Source of the DNA: Acidobacteriota bacterium | Lineage (GTDB): Bacteria > Acidobacteriota > Vicinamibacteria > Vicinamibacterales > CAVVIG01 | NCBI GenBank assembly: GCA_023265175.1 | Contig: JAHFUI010000015.1 | Location: 1 to 45,620 of the forward strand | Reading direction: 5' to 3' | DNA: 45,620 bases | Part shown: positions 3,730 through 30,374 of the stretch, piece by piece | How the letters are laid out: the number at the start of each line of letters is the position of its first letter | How positions within the stretch are numbered: the first letter of the stretch is position 1 | Translations under genes and position numbers: made by a program | Notes under the pieces: generated by a model | Told to the model about the DNA's origin: nothing | The model's input: only the letters and a program-made list of their open reading frames with translations | Database searches by the model: none

Positions 3730-4569
3730 ATGTCAGAATCGCTTCGCGTGATTGGAAACTCGCAGGAACAGTGGGCACGAGCACTGGGGCGCGATAAGAG
3801 ATGGACGGCGTACGTAGCCGAACTCGGCGATAACCTCTTCCGGAAGGGCCTCAGTTCGGAAACGCAGGCGGACTTCGCAGACGGTGACGGTTCGGAGCTC
3901 CGCAATAGCCCGCGAAGGCCGGCAAAGATGCGGGCCCTGGTATCATCGTCGGCGTTGGCTGTGAACTTCTTCGACGCATGGCGCGTCGTCGACAAGACGG
4001 CGCTGCAACGCGCGCTCGATCTCCAAACTGGCATCGCTGGGTTCCAGTTCGAATTCAAGACACGCGACTACCCGGTTCGCCCGTATTCGCCGAACCTCGA
4101 CATCCTGGTACGGCTCCTCGACGGTCGCGCCGTTGGAATTGAGTCCAAGTTCACCGAACCGTACTCCTCGGATGATGGTCACGGGGTGATTTCGGCAAAG
4201 TACTTCGCCGAGGCGACGGGGTTGTGGCGCACGGCGCGGCTCCCCGCGGCACAGCAGCTGGCAGACCGACTCGAACCTGAATGGATTCACCTCGATGTTC
4301 CGCAATTGCTGAAACATTTGCTCGGCCTCGCATGCGACCCGGAACGGCCTGGCACGCTGCTCTACGTCTGGTATGACACCGGCCGCGCAGATGCGAGCGT
4401 GCATCGTCAGGAGATCGAACGATTCGCTGCCGCAGTTGCGAACGAGCCAGTCGCGTTTCGTCACATCACTTATCAATCACTGTTCGCAGCCCTCGCAGCG
4501 CGTGACGAACCTCTGAGTGGTTGGCATGAGTACATGTGCACGCGTTACTTCAATCCGAGGGCGGGCTAA
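3730..4569 (+). CDS. gene-cassette ORF: PD-(D/E)XK nuclease-like protein
   Basis: 279 residues. The centre reads SPNLDILVRLLDGRAVGIESKFTEPY, with D124 then E138-x-K140. This is the spacing and strand context of a PD-(D/E)XK catalytic core, and the protein resembles a group of putative restriction endonucleases. Upstream it has SSALAVNFFDAWRVV and downstream a helical half with no recognisable domain. No methyltransferase gene is nearby. The stop codon TAA (4567-4569) lies inside the first recombination half-site of the attC, the classic arrangement of an integron cassette. 3462-3729, between the integrase start and this ATG, shows no gene and no clear attI core. Function as a nuclease is inference; a defence or DNA-processing role is possible. 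Confidence 0.75.
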   Translation: MSESLRVIGNSQEQWARALGRDKRWTAYVAELGDNLFRKGLSSETQADFADGDGSELRNSPRRPAKMRALVSSSALAVNFFDAWRVVDKTALQRALDLQTGIAGFQFEFKTRDYPVRPYSPNLDILVRLLDGRAVGIESKFTEPYSSDDGHGVISAKYFAEATGLWRTARLPAAQQLADRLEPEWIHLDVPQLLKHLLGLACDPERPGTLLYVWYDTGRADASVHRQEIERFAAAVANEPVAFRHITYQSLFAALAARDEPLSGWHEYMCTRYFNPRAG

Positions 4570-14886: not shown

Positions 14887-16518
14887 ATGAGCCGCACGAT
14901 CCGCGTGCACGATCCGCGAGGCTTCCCACCCGAGGTCATCGGGAAGCAGCTGGCGCCGCGGCTGGAGAACCTCGAAGGCAAGACGATCTATCTCGTCGAT
15001 TGCCTGTTCGACAACTCCGACGTGTTCGTCGACCAGTTGCGGCAATGGTTCGGCGAGCATCTGCCGGGCACAGACGTTCGCATGGTGCGCGCGAGGGAAA
15101 GCTGGGTCGACGATCCCGATCTGCGCGCGCGCATCGAGGCCGACGGCGACGGGGCCATACTCGGTGTAGGGCTTTGAAGCACGTGCAGCCCAACGGTCGT
15201 TGGGCTCGCGGTGGCGCTCGAGACGGCCGGCGTGCCGACCGTCGCCGTGCATGCCCACGTGTTCGCGCGTCTCGCGCGTTCCGTGGCTACGGCCAACGGC
15301 ATGCCGACAACGCGGCAGGCGTTCGTTCCGCAGCCCGTCGTCGGCCGCACGGCCGCCGAGCTCCGGGCGTACATCGAGGGCACGGATCCGATCAATAGGT
15401 GTGCGTTCATCGAATCCGTGATCGGCGGGCTCACGCGCCCGCTCGACGGGCAGGATCTGGCGGGCCTGTCGTACACCCGCTCGACGCCCCGGCTGCTCGA
15501 AGCCGACACTGAAGACAATCTGCACAGGCGGTTCAGCGAGAACCGCTGGACAGACTTCGCGCCCGTCGTGCTGCCGACCGAGGCGCGCGTCGCCGCGATG
15601 CTGGCGGGCACGCGCCACGCCGCCGACGAGGTGGTCGGGCGCCTGCGTCCGACGGCCTATCGCGAGTTCTGGGAGTTCACGGTCGAGAAGGTCGCGGTCA
15701 ACGCCGTCATGGCGGGCGCGAGCCCCGCGTACCTGCCCGTCATCCTCGCGATGGCCGCAAGCGGCGTCTCGGGTCGCTCGAGCTCCACGACGTCGCAGGC
15801 GACCGTCGCGCTCGTCAACGGTCCGATCCGCGACGAGATCGGCATGAACTACGGGATCGGGGCGCTCGGTCCGTACAGCCACGCCAACGCGACGATCGGG
15901 CGCGCGTACGGATTGCTCTCGCAGAACCTGCAAGGCGGCTCCGTGCCGCAAGAGACCTACATGGGCTCGCAGGGAAACTTCCTGAGCTACAACGCGACGT
16001 TCGCCGAAAACGAGCAGGCGAGCCCCTGGGAACCGTTCCATGTGCAGCACGGCTTCAAGCCAGAGGACAGCACGGTGAGCCTGTTCCTCGGCGGCTGGTA
16101 CACGGTGTTTGGCGGCGGCCCGCGCGAGACGTGGGAGCAGAAGTTCACGCGCTCTCTGCAGGCCTGCGATCCGTATACTGGCCCGATCATCGCGCTCGAT
16201 CCGCTCGTCGCGCGGGGCTTCGTCGATCGCGGGTTCGAGACGAAGCAGCAGCTCATCGATTGGTGCGTTGAGCACGCGCGCCTGCCGGCCCGGGAATACT
16301 GGGACAACCAGTGGATTCAGACGCTGCACCACCCGCGCGCGCTCGCCGGCGTCGAGCCGTACGCGTCGATGCTGAAAGCGGCGCCCGACGAGCTCATTCG
16401 CATGTTTCGGCCCGAGGATATCCACATCGTCGTCGTTGGCGGGGAAACAGGAGCCATGTGGAAGATGATCGGCGGCGGACCGCGGCTCACCATCGTGTCG
16501 ATCGACAAGTGGCGGTAG
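14887..16518 (+). CDS. selenoprotein 1 (UGSC-like N-domain, U97-S-T-C100), TGA read as selenocysteine
   Basis: A single frame of 544 codons interrupted only by TGA at 15175-15177 (codon 97). Before the TGA: IRVHDPRGFPPEVIGKQLAP, GKTIYLVDCLFDNSDVF, GAILGVGL. After it, in the same frame: STCSPTVVGLAVALETAGVP then TVAVHAHVFARLA. The junction GxGL-U-STC...LE.AG.PTV has the layout of the UGSC (seleno)protein family, with a UxxC redox motif. The C-terminal 430 residues continue open with VEKVAVNAVMAGASPAYLPV, INGPIRDE-type and NATIGRAYGLLSQNL motifs to FRPEDIHIVVVGGETGAMWK. A bacterial SECIS-like hairpin follows the TGA. It is a paralogue of 25254-26882 with Sec at the same codon. Conventional annotation would give a 96-residue and a 435-residue protein. 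It is probably a cytosolic redox enzyme; the reaction is unknown. Confidence 0.9.
15175..15206 (+). promoter_or_regulatory. UGA codon and bacterial SECIS hairpin 1
   Basis: UGA at 15175-15177, then 9 nt, then a perfect 8-bp stem AGCCCAAC/GTTGGGCT (15187-15194, 15199-15206) closing a GGTC loop. The loop begins 17 nt after the UGA and has G as its first base, in line with known bSECIS geometry (roughly 16-37 nt, G in the first two loop positions). It would bind SelB to deliver Sec-tRNA. Confidence 0.85.
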
Positions 16519-23379: not shown

Positions 23380-24189
23380 ATGCCTGTCAAGTTGCTTCTG
23401 CCGTGTGTCGCGGCGTTGATCGTCGCCGCGCTCCCGGGAACGGTGTCCGGCCAATGGCTGGATTACCCCACACCGGGCGTGCCACGCACATCGGACGGCA
23501 AGCCCAACATGTCAGCGCCCGCGCCGCGGACCGCCGACGGGAAACCGGACCTGAGCGGCATGTGGGGCTGGGAGACTCGCGCGAACTGCGGCGCCCACTG
23601 CAACGATACGCAGATCTCGCGCGAGTTCATCAACATCGCCGCCAGCCTGAAGGAACGCTTGCCCTACCAGCCGGAGGTGGCGGACTTGGTGAAGACACGA
23701 ACGGCGTCGCAGGACGCGGATCCCAATGTCCATTGCATGCCGCGTGGCGCTCCGCGAATCTGGACCGACGACTACTACAAGCGGATCGTTCAAGTTCCTG
23801 ACCGGGTGATCATCCTCACCGAGCGCAACATGCAGTATCGCCAGATCTTCACCGATGGACGGCCCCTTCCCGATGATCCGCACCCGACCTGGAACGGCTA
23901 CTCAACCGCGCGGTGGGAAGGGGACACGTTGGTGGTGCAGACCATCGGGTTCCGCGACGACCTGTGGCTGGATGCCAATGGGAACCCCCTGACGAGCGCG
24001 GCGAAGCTGACCGAGAGGATCCGCCGGCCGCGTTATGGGACGCTGGAAATCGAAATGACGATTGACGATCCGAAGTCCTACACTGCGGCCTGGACCGTAC
24101 AGCTGACCGAGCCGCTGGTGCTCGATAGCGAACTGCTGGACTACTACTGTCTCGAGAACGAGAAGGACTGGGCGCACATGGTGAAGTGA
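23380..24189 (+). CDS. exported protein of the GKPDFSGIW family, paralogue 2
   Basis: 269 residues; AGGAGGAAT precedes the ATG. Signal peptide ends near VSGQ, then WLDYPTPGVPRTSDGKPNMS, APAPRTADGKPDLSGMWGWE. The second half, QYRQIFTDGRPLPDDPHPTW then NGYSTARWEGDTLVVQTIGF then RDDLWLDANGNPL, matches the protein at 11454-12269 closely, including the C-terminal LENEKDW. Four cysteines occur in the variable central part. The function of the family is unknown. The 316 bp upstream (23064-23379) carry no gene and must hold promoters for this gene and the divergent VOC gene. Confidence 0.82.
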   Translation: MPVKLLLPCVAALIVAALPGTVSGQWLDYPTPGVPRTSDGKPNMSAPAPRTADGKPDLSGMWGWETRANCGAHCNDTQISREFINIAASLKERLPYQPEVADLVKTRTASQDADPNVHCMPRGAPRIWTDDYYKRIVQVPDRVIILTERNMQYRQIFTDGRPLPDDPHPTWNGYSTARWEGDTLVVQTIGFRDDLWLDANGNPLTSAAKLTERIRRPRYGTLEIEMTIDDPKSYTAAWTVQLTEPLVLDSELLDYYCLENEKDWAHMVK

Positions 24190-24292: not shown

Positions 24293-25228
24293 GTGACGGA
24301 CCACAACTACGACGTCGTGATCGCCGGGGCCGGCATCGCCGGCCTGACCGCGGGTCTGCTCTCGGCCAGGGCTGGGCGCCGCACGCGCGTGCTGACCGGC
24401 CCCGCGCTCGGGGGACATCTGCTGAGCATCGAGCATATCGACGGCTATCCCGGCTTTCCCGACGGGATCGCCGGCTACGATTTGTGTCCGATCGTACAGG
24501 AGCAGGCTGTCGCCGCCGGTGCGGAGTTCGGCGCGACGTCGGTCACGAGTCTCGCCGCCCACGAGGGCCGGTGGCGGGTGACCACCGGCGAGGGCGAGCT
24601 GCGGGCCGGAGTCGTCGTGGTGGCGACCGGCACGACGTCGAAGGCGCTCGGGATCCCGGGCGAGGCGCGACTGCGGGGCAAGGGCGTGAGCCACTGCGCG
24701 AGCTGTGACGGACCGCTGCTTCGCTCGCGCGCGGTCGGTGTGGTGGGGGGCGGAGATTCCGCGCTGCAGGAAGCGCTCACGCTGGCCCGGTTCGCGTCCC
24801 GGGTGATCGTCCTGCACCGCGGCACGACGCTCTCCGCGCAGGCCGCGTATCGCGAGCGCCTGCGCGATCACCAGAACCTCGAGGTGCGAACGAGCACGGT
24901 CGTCGAGGAAATGCTCGGCGACACCGTGCTCACGGGGGTCCGCACGCGAACGACGACCGACGGAACCGAGACCGACCTGGAGCTGGCCGGTCTGTTCGTT
25001 TACGTTGGATTGACGCCGGATACCGCGTGGCTGAACGGCACGCTCGATCTCGACTCGTCGGGAGGGATCCCGACCGATGACGCGATGCGCAGTCGTCTTC
25101 CGGGTCTGTTTGCGGCTGGGACGGTCCGATCCGGATCGGTCGGCCGGGCGGCTAGTGCGGCCGGCGACGGGGCGACGGCGGCAGTCGCCGCCGATCGGTA
25201 CTTGAGCGACGGCGCGTGGCGCGTGTGA
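24293..25228 (+). CDS. thioredoxin-reductase-like FAD/NAD(P) oxidoreductase
   Basis: 311 residues from a GTG start. FAD-binding GAGIAG at 11-16, the redox pair C135-A-S-C138 in HCASCDGPLL, the NAD(P)-binding VGGGDSALQEALTLARFASR, and GLFAAGTVRSG near the end (thioredoxin reductases usually have D in GVFAAGD; here T). Order and spacing follow the low-molecular-weight thioredoxin reductase fold. It ends 25 bp before the second selenoprotein, in the same direction, with no terminator between. The likely role is to pass electrons from NAD(P)H through FAD and the CxxC to the U-S-T-C centre of that protein; this is inference from position and chemistry. Confidence 0.88.
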   Translation: MTDHNYDVVIAGAGIAGLTAGLLSARAGRRTRVLTGPALGGHLLSIEHIDGYPGFPDGIAGYDLCPIVQEQAVAAGAEFGATSVTSLAAHEGRWRVTTGEGELRAGVVVVATGTTSKALGIPGEARLRGKGVSHCASCDGPLLRSRAVGVVGGGDSALQEALTLARFASRVIVLHRGTTLSAQAAYRERLRDHQNLEVRTSTVVEEMLGDTVLTGVRTRTTTDGTETDLELAGLFVYVGLTPDTAWLNGTLDLDSSGGIPTDDAMRSRLPGLFAAGTVRSGSVGRAASAAGDGATAAVAADRYLSDGAWRV

Positions 25229-25253: not shown

Positions 25254-26882
25254 ATGGTTCAGCGTGTAACGGTGCACGATCCCCGCGGCTATCCGCCGAA
25301 GGTGGTGGGCAAGCGTCTGGCGCCCCGGCCGCCGACGATCGAGGGGAAGACGGTCTACCTGGTCGACTGCCTGTTCGACAACTCGGACGTCTTCACCGAG
25401 CAGCTGCGGCAATGGTTCGTCGAGCACCTGCCCGCGGTGAACATCCGCACGATCCAGCCGAGCAAAACCTGGTCCGACGACGAGGAGATGCGCGCGAGGA
25501 TCGTGTCCGACGGCGACGCGGCCATCCTCGGCGTTGGGCTTTGAAGCACCTGCAGCCCGACGGTCGTCGGGCTCGCGGCGGCACTCGAAGAGAGTGGCAT
25601 ACCCACGGTCGGGGTACACACGCACGTGTTCGCGAGGCTCGTCCGCGCCACCGCGCTCGCCCTTGGCATGCCGCGCATGCGGCAGGCGTACGTGCCGCAG
25701 CCGGTGGTCGACCGCTCGGCCGCCGACCTGCGCGCCTACATTGACGGCAACGATCCGGTGTCGCACCGGCCCTTCATGCAGGAGGTGATCGACGGCCTCA
25801 TTCGTCCGCTCGACGAATCGGACCTGCAGGGGCAGTCGTTCGAGCGCACGACACCGCGGCTGCTGGAGCCCGACAGCGAAGAGCACCTGCATCGGCTGTT
25901 CGAGGAGAACCACTGGACGGACTGTCTGCCGATCACGCTCCCGACCGAGGCACGCGTGAACGCGATGCTCAAGGGCACGAGCCATTCCGCTGACGAGGTC
26001 GTGGGACGACTGCGTCCGGCGGACCTCCGCGAGTTCTGGGAGTTCACGGTCGAGAAGGTGGCCGTGAACGCCGTCATGGCCGGCGCGCGGCCCGGGTACT
26101 TCCCGGTCATTCTCGCGCTCGCGGCGAGCGGCGTCACCGCGCGGTCCAGCAGCACCAATTCCTTCGCGACGATATCGGTCATCAACGGCCCGATTCGCCA
26201 CGAGATCGACATGAGCTCGGGCATCGGCGTCATGGGTCCCTACAACCACGCCAACGCGACGATCGGGCGCGCCTTCGGCCTGCTGTCGCAGAATCTCCAG
26301 GGTGGATCGGTTCCCGGCGAGACGTATATGGGGTCGCTGGGCAACTGGTACGCCTACACAGCGGCGCTACCCGAGGCCGAGGAGCGCAGCCCGTGGCGGC
26401 CGCTGCACGTGCAGCAGGGGTTCAAGCCGACCGACAGCGTCGCCACCGTCTTCTTCGGCGGCTGGTACACGCACGCGGGCTACGGTCCCAGGGCCACGTG
26501 GCAGCAGAAGATGCGACATTGCCTTGCGGCGGTCGAACAGTACAGTCCGCCGCTGCTGGTGATCGATCCGATCGCGGCCCGTGGCTTCTCCGATCTCGGC
26601 TTCGACACCAAGGAGAAGCTGATCGAGTGGTGTGCCGACAACGGGCGCCTGACCGCTCGCGAGTACTGGGACAATCAGTGGATTCAGTATCTGATGCGGC
26701 CTCGCGCGGTCGCCGGCGTCGAACCGTTCGCGTCGCGGCTCAAGGCCGCGCCTGATGAGCTGATTCGAATCTTTGAGCCGGCGGACATCCACATCGTCGT
26801 GGCGGGCGGCGAGACCCAGGGCACCTGGAAGATGATCAGCGGCGCGCTCAGGGGGACGGTGTCCATCGACAAATGGCGGTGA
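25254..26882 (+). CDS. selenoprotein 2 (UGSC-like N-domain, U97-S-T-C100), TGA read as selenocysteine
   Basis: 543 codons in one frame with a single TGA at 25542-25544, codon 97, the same codon number as in the paralogue at 14887. Flanks: GDAAILGVGL before, then STCSPTVVGLAAALEESGIP and TVGVHTHVFARLVRA after. The C-terminal part reads VEKVAVNAVMAGARPGYFPV, INGPIRHEIDMSSGIGVMGP, NHANATIGRAFGLLSQNLQG, PWRPLHVQQGFKPTDSV, ending MISGALRGTVSIDKWR. The two proteins align without gaps around the Sec site and share most motifs. A SECIS-like hairpin follows the TGA. The thioredoxin-reductase-like gene ends 25 bp upstream. It is probably a redox or thiol-dependent enzyme. The last 94 bp are duplicated at 30206. 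Confidence 0.9.
25542..25573 (+). promoter_or_regulatory. UGA codon and bacterial SECIS hairpin 2
   Basis: UGA, 9 nt, then an 8-bp stem AGCCCGAC/GTCGGGCT (25554-25561, 25566-25573) with the same GGTC loop as the first selenoprotein gene. Compared with copy 1, one A-U pair has become G-C by changes on both sides, a compensatory substitution supporting the stem as RNA structure. Confidence 0.85.
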
Positions 26883-26884
26883 CC
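26791..26884 (+). repeat. 94-bp direct repeat, copy 1 (3' end of selenoprotein 2)
   Basis: Covers the last 92 bases of the selenoprotein frame plus two bases beyond the stop. Identical to 30206-30299 except for one base, in the same orientation. The ABC permease/PadR module lies exactly between the two copies. Confidence 0.9.
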
Positions 26885-26924
26885 GTCGCGCTGGCCGTTT
26901 GGTGACGCGGTGGCTATCAAGGCT

Positions 26925-29669
26925 TCACTCGGCCCTGAGCGCTTCGACCGGATCGACCTTTGCCGCCCGGCACGCGGGCAGATAGCTGGCCAGCACCGCC
27001 GCGGTCCCGAGGACGATCGGCACTGCCACGTACGTCAGCGGATCCAGCGGGCTGATCCCAAACAGCAGCGACGACATCAGACGCGTGAGCCCGACGGCCG
27101 CCGCGAGCCCGATGGCCACGCCGATGCCGGTCAGCGCCAAGCCGTGGCGCACAAACATCCGCTTCAGCATCGCCTGCTGCGCGCCCAGTGCCAGCCGGAT
27201 ACCGATCTCACGCCTTCGCTGCGACACGCCGTAGGACATCACGCCGTAGATGCCGATGATCCCGAGCGCTAGAGCCATTAGCCCCGCGATCGAAAGCATC
27301 ACCAGCGTGAAGGATGTCCGGGCGAGCGATTGGTCGTAGACCTCCTGCATCGTCCGCACCTCGGCCACGGGAAGATTCGAATTCACCGACCAAACGGCTT
27401 GCCTAAGCTGATTGATAAAAGGCTCGGTGCCCGTGCGATCGCTGCGGACCGCGAATGTTTCAGTGCGCCACACGTCCGTCTCCCCGGGTGAGAAAGGATT
27501 GGGCATCATCGTAGGCCAGTAGACGGTGAGCGGTGCCTTCTCCTGGATGCCGTTCTCGCGGACGTCCTGCAATACGCCGATCACCTCCCACCACGGCCCT
27601 ATCTGAGACTGGCGAAATCTCTTGCCGATCGCGGCGGAGGGTGTGCCCCACAGCTCGCGGGCAAGATTCTCGGAAACCATCGCCACCGGTCTGAGGCCGT
27701 AGACCTCAGTCCATGTCAGTTCGCGGCCCGCGACTATTCGCGTGCCGGCCGTGTGAAAGAACTCGGGAGACACATACTTGAACAGCCGGAGGGGCGGAAT
27801 TTCACCGGCAGCATACGCCTTGCCCTCGACGAGGATGGCGTTCCAGTTGGGGGCGAGCCCCTCCATCGGCATTTCGCTCGCGAATCCAACCGACGTCACG
27901 CCTGGAATCGCCTCCAGCGTGTTGGAGATCTCGTTCTGGATTCGGGTGACGCGCTCTGGCTCCGCCACCAGCGAGGCCGGGATGGAGATTCGCATGGTTT
28001 GAAGCTGCTCCGCATGGGTGAATCCGGGCTCGACGGTTCGCAACGCCTGGAACGTGCGAATCATCAATCCAGAGCACACCAGCAGGACCATCGCCATCGC
28101 CACTTGAGCGATCACCAGGATATTGCGCGCGCGGTGCCGCTCCCGGCTCACGCTCGCTGTCCGCCCGGCGCTCCGAAGGGCCAGGGAAATCCGCGGTCCG
28201 GCATATTTCAGGGCCGGGATCAATCCCAATAGGAAACCCGACAACAGAGAGAGGACCGCCGTGAACCCCAGCGCCCGCGTGTCGAGGGAGATTTCGCTCA
28301 AGCGAGGCAGATTCGCCGGACTCATGGCCACCAGCACGCGCAATCCGGCGTCCGCCAGCACCACTCCGAGAGCGCCGCCCATCAGGCCCAGCATCGAGCT
28401 TTCCACCAACAGGCCCCGGACGATTCGGCCCCAGCCGGCGCCGAGCGCGGCGCGAACCGCCAGTTCCTGCTGCCGCGACTCCGCTCTCACGAGCAACAAG
28501 TTCGTCACGTTCGCGCAGGCGATCAGCATCACCACGGCGATGGTCGCCATCACGACCCACAGGACGTCGCTGACGTTGCCGACCACCTGTTGTTTGAGCG
28601 GGCGAATATCCGGGGTGATTCTCCAGGTTTCCAAGACTCGCCCATTGCTGCCGGCTCCGTTTGTCCAGGAGTCCATCCAGATCGGGACCAGTCGCGCCAG
28701 GTCGGCATTGGCTTGCGCGATCGGAACGCCCGGCTTGAGCCGGCCGATCCCTTGAAACTGGAATCCACCCAGGATAGTCCGGCCGCGATCGAAGGCGAGC
28801 GGCACGATCAAGTCGAACTCCGCGTTGACGACACGAAACCCCTGGGGCATGACGCCGACGATTTCCCGCGGGCGCGAATCGACGGTAATGTTGCGCCCGA
28901 TCGCGGACTTGTCCCCGCCGAAGTGCCGCTGCCAATACCCGTAGCTGAGTATCACGGTGGTCGAACGCCCCGAGAAGAACGAGCCAGGGTCCGGACCGCG
29001 CGAAACCTGGTCGGCCTGCGAGAGCCAACGGCCGGCCGCGGGTGGGACGCTGAGCACTTGAAGCACGCCATCGCTGATGGAAACCGTGCGAACCTGTTCC
29101 GGCTCGGCCAGTCCTGTGACGTTGGCGGTACCCGTGACCCAGACGCCCAGCGATTGGAAGGTCCGGTTCTGCTCGGCGTAGGTGAAATACATGGAAGGCG
29201 AGAGACGCAGGCCGTCGATGAAATTCGCGAGTCCCGCAGCGCCCGGAGCGATCTGTCGGAGGGCCACCAGTTCCTCCGCCTTCGGATAACGCAGTGGATT
29301 CAGCAGCACGCTATTGACGACGCTGAAGACCGCCGTATTCGCGCCGATTCCGATGGCGAGCGTCAGCAACGCCACTGCCGTGAACGTGGGAGCGCGGCGC
29401 AGCGCCCGAAGCCCGTAGCGCGCGTCGCGCAGCGCGGCGCCCAGCTGGGGGAAGCCCTGCTGATCGCGAAGCGCGTCCATCGTGTGCGCCACGCCGCCGA
29501 GCCGGATCGTCGCCGCTCGCGCCGCGCCGTCGACCGAATTGGCGCGCCGCCGTTCGTCGGCGGCGGCGAGCTCGAGGTGCAGACGCAGTTCCTGCTCGAG
29601 CTCGCGGTCGCGACGGCTGCCGCCGAGCGTTCCCCAGAGGCGTGTCATCCACTCACGGAGCGTGGCCAT
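26925..29669 (-). CDS. ADOP-type ABC transporter permease (MacB-like)
   Basis: 914 residues. The N-terminal 70 residues carry the soluble ADOP leader (LWGTLGGSRRDRELEQELRL). Then comes the first FtsX/MacB unit (FTAVALLTLAIGIGANTAVF, a periplasmic domain beginning NSVLLNPLRYPKAEELVALR, and SDVLWVVMATIAVVMLIACA, NVTNLLLVRAESRQQELAVR). A second unit begins ARNILVIAQVAMAMVLLVCS and ends with IIGIYGVMSYGVSQRRREIG, IRLALGAQQAMLKRMFVRHG, VASYLPACRAAKVDPVEALR. This duplicated layout, without its own ATPase, is the acidobacterial duplicated orphan permease. The substrate is unknown. A PadR repressor gene precedes it by 117 bp, as is usual for ADOPs. Confidence 0.92.
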   Translation of the reverse strand: MATLREWMTRLWGTLGGSRRDRELEQELRLHLELAAADERRRANSVDGAARAATIRLGGVAHTMDALRDQQGFPQLGAALRDARYGLRALRRAPTFTAVALLTLAIGIGANTAVFSVVNSVLLNPLRYPKAEELVALRQIAPGAAGLANFIDGLRLSPSMYFTYAEQNRTFQSLGVWVTGTANVTGLAEPEQVRTVSISDGVLQVLSVPPAAGRWLSQADQVSRGPDPGSFFSGRSTTVILSYGYWQRHFGGDKSAIGRNITVDSRPREIVGVMPQGFRVVNAEFDLIVPLAFDRGRTILGGFQFQGIGRLKPGVPIAQANADLARLVPIWMDSWTNGAGSNGRVLETWRITPDIRPLKQQVVGNVSDVLWVVMATIAVVMLIACANVTNLLLVRAESRQQELAVRAALGAGWGRIVRGLLVESSMLGLMGGALGVVLADAGLRVLVAMSPANLPRLSEISLDTRALGFTAVLSLLSGFLLGLIPALKYAGPRISLALRSAGRTASVSRERHRARNILVIAQVAMAMVLLVCSGLMIRTFQALRTVEPGFTHAEQLQTMRISIPASLVAEPERVTRIQNEISNTLEAIPGVTSVGFASEMPMEGLAPNWNAILVEGKAYAAGEIPPLRLFKYVSPEFFHTAGTRIVAGRELTWTEVYGLRPVAMVSENLARELWGTPSAAIGKRFRQSQIGPWWEVIGVLQDVRENGIQEKAPLTVYWPTMMPNPFSPGETDVWRTETFAVRSDRTGTEPFINQLRQAVWSVNSNLPVAEVRTMQEVYDQSLARTSFTLVMLSIAGLMALALGIIGIYGVMSYGVSQRRREIGIRLALGAQQAMLKRMFVRHGLALTGIGVAIGLAAAVGLTRLMSSLLFGISPLDPLTYVAVPIVLGTAAVLASYLPACRAAKVDPVEALRAE

Positions 29670-30161: not shown

Positions 30162-30205
30162 AGACGGTCAAACAGAAGAATGGTTCGCCGGAAGTCCTCG
30201 AGCGA

Positions 30206-30299
30206 CATCGTCGTGGCGAGCGGCGAGACCCAGGGCACCTGGAAGATGATCAGCGGCGCGCTCAGGGGGACGGTGTCCATCGACAAATGGCGGTGACCG
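30206..30299 (+). repeat. 94-bp direct repeat, copy 2 (orphan selenoprotein 3' end)
   Basis: Reads in frame as VVASGETQGTWKMISGALRG then TVSIDKWR and stop, the exact C-terminus of selenoprotein 2, with one base changed. Nothing of the remaining gene is present upstream; the preceding sequence is the padR promoter region. It is a recombination scar or leftover of a third copy. Confidence 0.9.
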
Positions 30300-30374
30300 C
30301 CGCACCCGGCCGTCAGGTTCGTCCGACCCAACGGCGCGAAACCGGCCCACAGGTCGAGGGGCTACAATGCCGGT

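Follow-up and report, generated by a model that had tools for sequence, protein, structure and literature searches.

The locus raises the question of what a TGA in the middle of an otherwise open frame signifies, and, should it be translated, what kind of protein results. At positions 25254–26882 of the window (the whole stretch of 45,620 nucleotides that was analysed) a frame starts with ATG at 25254 and ends on TGA at 26880–26882 with one internal stop, while the other two frames of the same strand hold 12 and 5 stops. The stretch is an intact selenoprotein gene, and its product is best read, with a probability of about 0.93 as judged from sequence, as a recoded member of the UGSC family. 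The UGA at codon 97 almost certainly means selenocysteine, because it is TGA or a Cys codon but never TAA or TAG in homologues, the coding sequence is conserved on both sides of it, a hairpin follows it, and selA, selB, selD and tRNA-Sec are present in the genome (Table 1).

Table 1. Coordinates of the features of the window discussed in the text
Feature	Position	Strand	Remarks
Thioredoxin-reductase-like (TrxR-like) flavoprotein, CASC motif	24293..25228	+	ends 25 nt 5' of the selenoprotein start; likely electron donor
Long UGSC-family selenoprotein gene	25254..26882	+	542 aa with Sec97; terminal stop also TGA
In-frame UGA, probably read as selenocysteine (U of U-S-T-C)	25542..25544	+	codon 97
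SECIS-type hairpin (predicted)	25552..25576	+	10 bp stem; GGUC apical loop 18–21 nt past the UGA
UGSC domain PF24696, residues 7–161	25272..25736	+	predicted alpha/beta fold; U97-x-x-C100
C-terminal domain, residues 194–542	25833..26879	+	no Pfam/NCBIfam family; without invariant Cys; encoded by a gene of its own in some relatives
Second long UGSC selenoprotein gene	14887..16518	+	543 residues, Sec97, 67% identical to the 25254–26882 copy
In-frame UGA (probable Sec) of the second copy	15175..15177	+	codon 97
SECIS-type hairpin of the second copy (predicted)	15185..15209	+	GGUC loop
Orphan 3' fragment past the ADOP permease gene, repeat of 26791–26889	30205..30303	+	98% identical

Recoding of the internal TGA

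When bacteria and archaea were scanned with each species represented by one genome, 80 loci came to light, spread over Pseudomonadota, Chloroflexota, Rokuibacteriota, Latescibacterota, Poribacteria, Actinomycetota and further groups; together with copies from the window's genome and its relatives, they supply 88 genes covering the codon. It is TGA in 73 of these, TGC in 14 and TGT in one; the cysteine homologues that were sought do exist, and TAA or TAG, looked for as a sign of an ordinary stop, occurs in 0/88. Thus, the in-frame UGA aligns with Cys in 15 homologues, as expected of a bacterial selenoprotein, and the Sec forms have no further internal stop. The Cys forms taken into the tree make up one Pseudomonadota branch. 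A selB above the curated cut-off is found in 33 of the 37 genomes with the TGA form as against 2 of the 12 with the Cys form only (Fisher P 7e-6, only a guide since most of the genomes are incomplete MAGs and they are related to one another); among the four TGA-bearing MAGs without such a score, one has a 206-bit partial. Two side cases come from Cys-form genes: one contig (CANJBX010000001.1, loci L103 and L106) carries both Cys and Sec forms of the same protein in a MAG in which no selB above the cut-off was found, and a Cys-form homologue at 4001–5647 of L095 has TAA where residue 187 would be encoded, reflecting either a decayed gene or a sequencing error.

The first-pass annotation had paired this gene with a second one carrying TGA at codon 97 in the same context, and this is confirmed: tblastn of the 25254–26882 protein against the window recovers a copy of 543 as against 542 residues, with the 67% identity spanning the whole length, the AILGVGL-U-STCSPTVVGLA stretch identical and the TGA at the same codon. 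In the codon alignment of the two, NG86 dN/dS is 0.35 before the TGA (dN 0.259/dS 0.750; 96 codons) and 0.28 after it (dN 0.239/dS 0.848; 445 codons), with most differences at third codon positions on either side. These ratios, neither of them near 1, bear out the further claim that read-through is under selection: purifying selection appears to act both upstream and downstream of the TGA, which supports read-through.

Immediately 3' of the UGA lies a predicted SECIS-type hairpin, as expected of a bacterial selenoprotein gene. In the 36 nt following the TGA, the segment that was compared, the GGTC apical loop occurs in all 57 distinct Sec-gene segments but in only 3 of 15 Cys genes. The loop spans two codons with free wobble bases, and these are G and C in 71/71 Sec genes, whereas like codons elsewhere in Sec genes end in G in 38% and in C in 54% of cases. 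The stem pair 15–24, which links the third position of a Pro codon to that of a Val codon, is G-C in 24, C-G in 8 and A-U in 2 with 0 mismatches—changes that are at once compensatory and synonymous—and the covariation score is 0.240, compared with 0.141 for shuffles and no more than 0.059 when the pairing is slid. Mean folding energy over 51 nt is −17.1 kcal/mol in Sec genes and −11.3 in Cys genes. For the window copies alone the folding z-scores are −2.8 and −1.7, the latter (the second copy) mildly beating its shuffles; hence, the strength of the hairpin evidence lies in the comparison across genes. A search of Rfam for a known SECIS family gave none at the gathering threshold, the only match being to a tRNA.

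The window's genome (4.9 Mb in 308 contigs; contamination estimate 3.7%) encodes the complete machinery expected of a bacterium with selenoproteins: selA (545 bits), selB (358 bits against a cut-off of 242), selC, i.e., a tRNA-Sec with anticodon TCA, and selD (350 bits), which itself carries a single in-frame TGA. It further encodes five two-domain UGSC proteins, with one in-frame TGA apiece, and a PrdB-like protein whose motif reads U-P-M-C; counting these five, selD and the PrdB-like gene, it likely has at least seven selenoprotein genes. Across the window's phylum, PrdB-like proteins have Sec (UPMC, UPxxC) at six loci (L111, at G000:C284:8531-8965, and L109, L110, L112, L114 and L116) and Cys or Ser in its place at three (L113, L117 and L119). 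At several Pseudomonadota loci (e.g., L029, L044, L048, L053 and L108) selA, selB or selD adjoins the UGSC gene.

Two other meanings of the codon have to be weighed against selenocysteine. The TGA could be an ordinary stop, leaving a pseudogene or two ORFs (96 aa and a re-initiated 418 aa), inasmuch as the standard code interrupts the frame here and a downstream GTG could start the longer ORF; with 73 genes over several phyla carrying TGA and never TAA or TAG, Cys at the same codon in others, selection on both sides, the SECIS hairpin and a complete sel machinery, this is very improbable and was rejected on the codon counts, dN/dS and the hairpin. A reassignment of UGA in the organism, e.g., to Trp, would agree with the single in-frame TGA per gene but is scarcely credible in a genome where the gene itself terminates with TGA, as do other window genes (e.g., 23380–24189 and 24293–25228), where tRNA-Trp has CCA and the TCA anticodon belongs to tRNA-Sec, and where the homologues have Cys rather than Trp or Gly at codon 97; the terminal TGA, the tRNA set and those Cys codons led to its rejection. 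With selenocysteine as the preferred reading, the locus has a practical side: gene calling by the standard code truncates both window genes at codon 97, so that a 542-residue enzyme is annotated as a 96-residue fragment and a spurious ORF.

Domains, fold and kinship

The N-terminal part of the protein matches PF24696 over residues 7–161 at 88.5 bits (gathering cut-off 25), a family matched by 30/30 N-domains scanned, and the protein very probably belongs to the UGSC family. It is a divergent long member because it falls short of the NF041046 equivalog cut-off (64 vs 125 bits); the literal U-G-S-C motif is replaced by U-S-T-C, though a further copy in this genome (L021) does have U-G-S-C. For residues 194–542, searches of Pfam and NCBIfam returned no family. 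In this C-terminal domain of about 350 residues many polar positions are invariant but no Cys is, and in certain relatives (L024–L028) the domain and the TGA-bearing UGSC domain are separate adjoining genes. In family f48 the frames that contain it are some 360 to 1000 residues long (L135–L138, L142 and L143), in some cases with separate TGA-carrying UGSC genes nearby (G208:C15 and G225:C39).

The structure model (pLDDT 91, pTM 0.90) places U97 and C100 after strand 3 of 5 in a Rossmann/flavodoxin-like domain. VIA-align of the N-domain model gives CheY-like, B12-binding-type and periplasmic-binding folds with Z of about 8–10, and a fold search with the whole model lists generic Rossmann-like matches to the N-domain only and no thioredoxin. 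As a prediction, the model thus makes a thioredoxin-like fold less likely. In the PDB, neither the protein sequence nor the derived profile had a significant sequence match, and solved structures match neither domain convincingly; a likeness of the C-domain to class I fumarase or cyclic-amide hydrolase (Foldseek E values starting at about 1e-3, rmsd mostly >12, VIA Z of about 5) was judged to be chance. A profile of PrdB-like selenoproteins of the same phylum, on the other hand, aligns with the UGSC domain over 76 columns around Sec (hhalign E 6e-7, 92%), where the second domain of the same protein, used as a control, gives 0.2%; NCBIfam adds weak matches in the same direction (GrdF 0.0074, PrdB 0.085, GrdB 0.2). 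On this local profile similarity and these weak matches, the Sec domains of UGSC and PrdB/GrdB proteins likely share ancestry, while the GRDB Pfam family (PF07355) has no match in the protein, which by that measure falls outside the PrdB/GrdB family itself.

These results bear on a reading in which the gene and its Sec are the same but the product is a general thiol-disulfide oxidoreductase of thioredoxin-like fold whose substrates are protein disulfides or peroxides. The UxxC motif and the neighbouring TrxR-like gene are in keeping with it, and a thioredoxin-like fold was proposed for UGSC proteins in 2008 (PMC2398784) and repeated since (PMC13188914). It is nonetheless rather improbable: the confident model sets UxxC after strand 3 of a Rossmann-like domain, the VIA matches are of other fold types, the top sequence-profile match is PrdB-like, and a fused 350-residue domain in which many polar residues but no Cys are invariant points to a particular small substrate. 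A substrate chemistry like that of PrdB/GrdB is put forward here tentatively, as a conjecture with the odds somewhat against it.

Origin and multiplication of the copies

The word paralogue, applied to the two window genes in the first-pass annotation, is a loose one. In the maximum-likelihood tree the 25254 copy groups with two tandem copies of a Hyphomicrobiales MAG (L029; 100/98) and the 14887 copy with a gammaproteobacterial MAG (L049; 100/94), both inside a clade otherwise made up of Pseudomonadota, whereas two other copies of the window's genome (C38 and C11) group with genomes of its own phylum. The different positions within the Pseudomonadota clade leave a simple in-genome duplication unsupported; the two copies appear to have been acquired separately or to have parted long ago, and lateral acquisition is the simplest reading. 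A stray proteobacterial contig is unlikely because the window encodes an ADOP permease (858 bits against a cut-off of 622), a family whose name refers to Acidobacteria; mis-binning retains a small probability, in line with the 3.7% contamination estimate. The same permease gene (26925–29669) lies between the two parts of a 99-nt direct repeat (26791–26889 and 30205–30303, 98% identical), the second of which repeats the selenoprotein gene's last codons and stop, as if the permease segment had been inserted with a duplicated end.

Elsewhere in the phylum, in genus g53 of family f30, the Sec form has expanded to about 18, 12 and 6 copies in three genomes (G187, G268 and G112; loci L139–L141 and L144), each copy with one in-frame TGA; some 18 copies would be unusual for a single selenoprotein family, and co-assembly of strains is possible. 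Such paralogue-rich relatives suggest that a phylum seldom cited for selenoproteins makes heavy use of a single family of them.

Neighbours, proposed mechanism and known systems

The commonest neighbour of long UGSC genes is a TrxR-like gene with CxxC: it lies beside the UGSC gene at 30 loci from genome contigs, with the motif in 30/30 and the two genes co-directional within 300 nt at 23, while many loci, including most of those from Caldilineaceae, have no TrxR-like gene next to the UGSC gene. Near the 3' part of one further UGSC gene (L022, G000:C49) lies an incomplete TrxR-like gene (72% identity across its first 97 residues), possibly a remnant of another such pair. Apart from TrxR-like and sel genes, the scanned neighbours form a mixed set (solute-binding proteins, FAD oxidoreductases, PhyH, IlvD) in which a pathway was sought and from which no substrate can be named.

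From the observed gene pair, redox motifs and recoding signals, a course of events may be envisaged. On comparative evidence, Sec is placed at codon 97 by SelB, charged tRNA-Sec and the adjoining 3' hairpin, yielding a two-domain enzyme with an N-terminal alpha/beta Sec-x-x-Cys domain and a putative substrate-binding or catalytic domain. The Sec selenolate would act as nucleophile on a small electrophilic substrate, the resolving Cys100 would close a Se–S bond, and the NADPH-dependent flavoprotein, physically coupled to the selenoprotein, would re-reduce that bond directly or via thioredoxin, electrons passing from NADPH to the flavoprotein, to Sec97/Cys100 and on to the substrate. Thus, the product looks like a reductase supplied by its TrxR-like partner, and that this very neighbour reduces it is slightly favoured. 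A wider proposition is possible but doubtful: that the long UGSC proteins are separate, widespread Sec-dependent substrate reductases, which unite a PrdB/GrdB Sec domain and a new substrate domain in one chain, draw on a TrxR-like flavoprotein, have in certain bacteria been multiplied to serve different substrates (one genome reaching about 18 Sec copies), have spread between phyla and in some lineages have become linked to sel genes.

Several parallels with known systems may be drawn. The recoding resembles that of bacterial SECIS/SelB systems such as E. coli fdhF in having a hairpin right after the UGA with GGUC in its apical loop, placed 18–21 nt downstream, near the fdhF position, whereas the length and sequence of the stem are specific to this family. 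The flavoprotein shares with thioredoxin reductase (TIGR01292) an FAD/NADPH oxidoreductase build with CxxC (CASC), but at 277 bits it stays under the equivalog cut-off of 343. The UGSC family is already known, as has been this type of fusion since 2008, when a UGSC protein fused to an "Unknown_1" domain was described from ocean metagenomes by Zhang and Gladyshev (PMC2398784); UGSC proteins stand without assigned function in a 2026 review (PMC13188914). As far as the 2008 description of the fusion goes, Unknown_1 is likely the C-terminal domain seen here. The protein shares with the known family and its fusion the N-terminal domain, the UxxC motif, the occurrence of both Sec and Cys forms and the attachment of a second domain, and differs in having USTC for UGSC and a score below the NF041046 cut-off. 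The family is widespread. What is added here is that its Sec domain looks more like that of PrdB/GrdB than like a thioredoxin, that a CxxC TrxR-like gene is its commonest neighbour, that the window copies nest separately among Pseudomonadota, and that a genome of a related genus may carry as many as about 18 copies with Sec. The function of UGSC proteins becomes biochemically testable through the evidence for a SECIS, the likeness to PrdB/GrdB and the TrxR-like partner. With PrdB and GrdB, GrdF and GrdH (PF07355, TIGR04483, TIGR01918) the protein shares Sec-x-x-Cys between a hydrophobic strand and a helix, followed by (L/I)E..G(I/V)PT(V/I), but it differs from them in its second domain and in neighbours whose listed families include neither a PrdA/GrdE-type partner nor GrdA.
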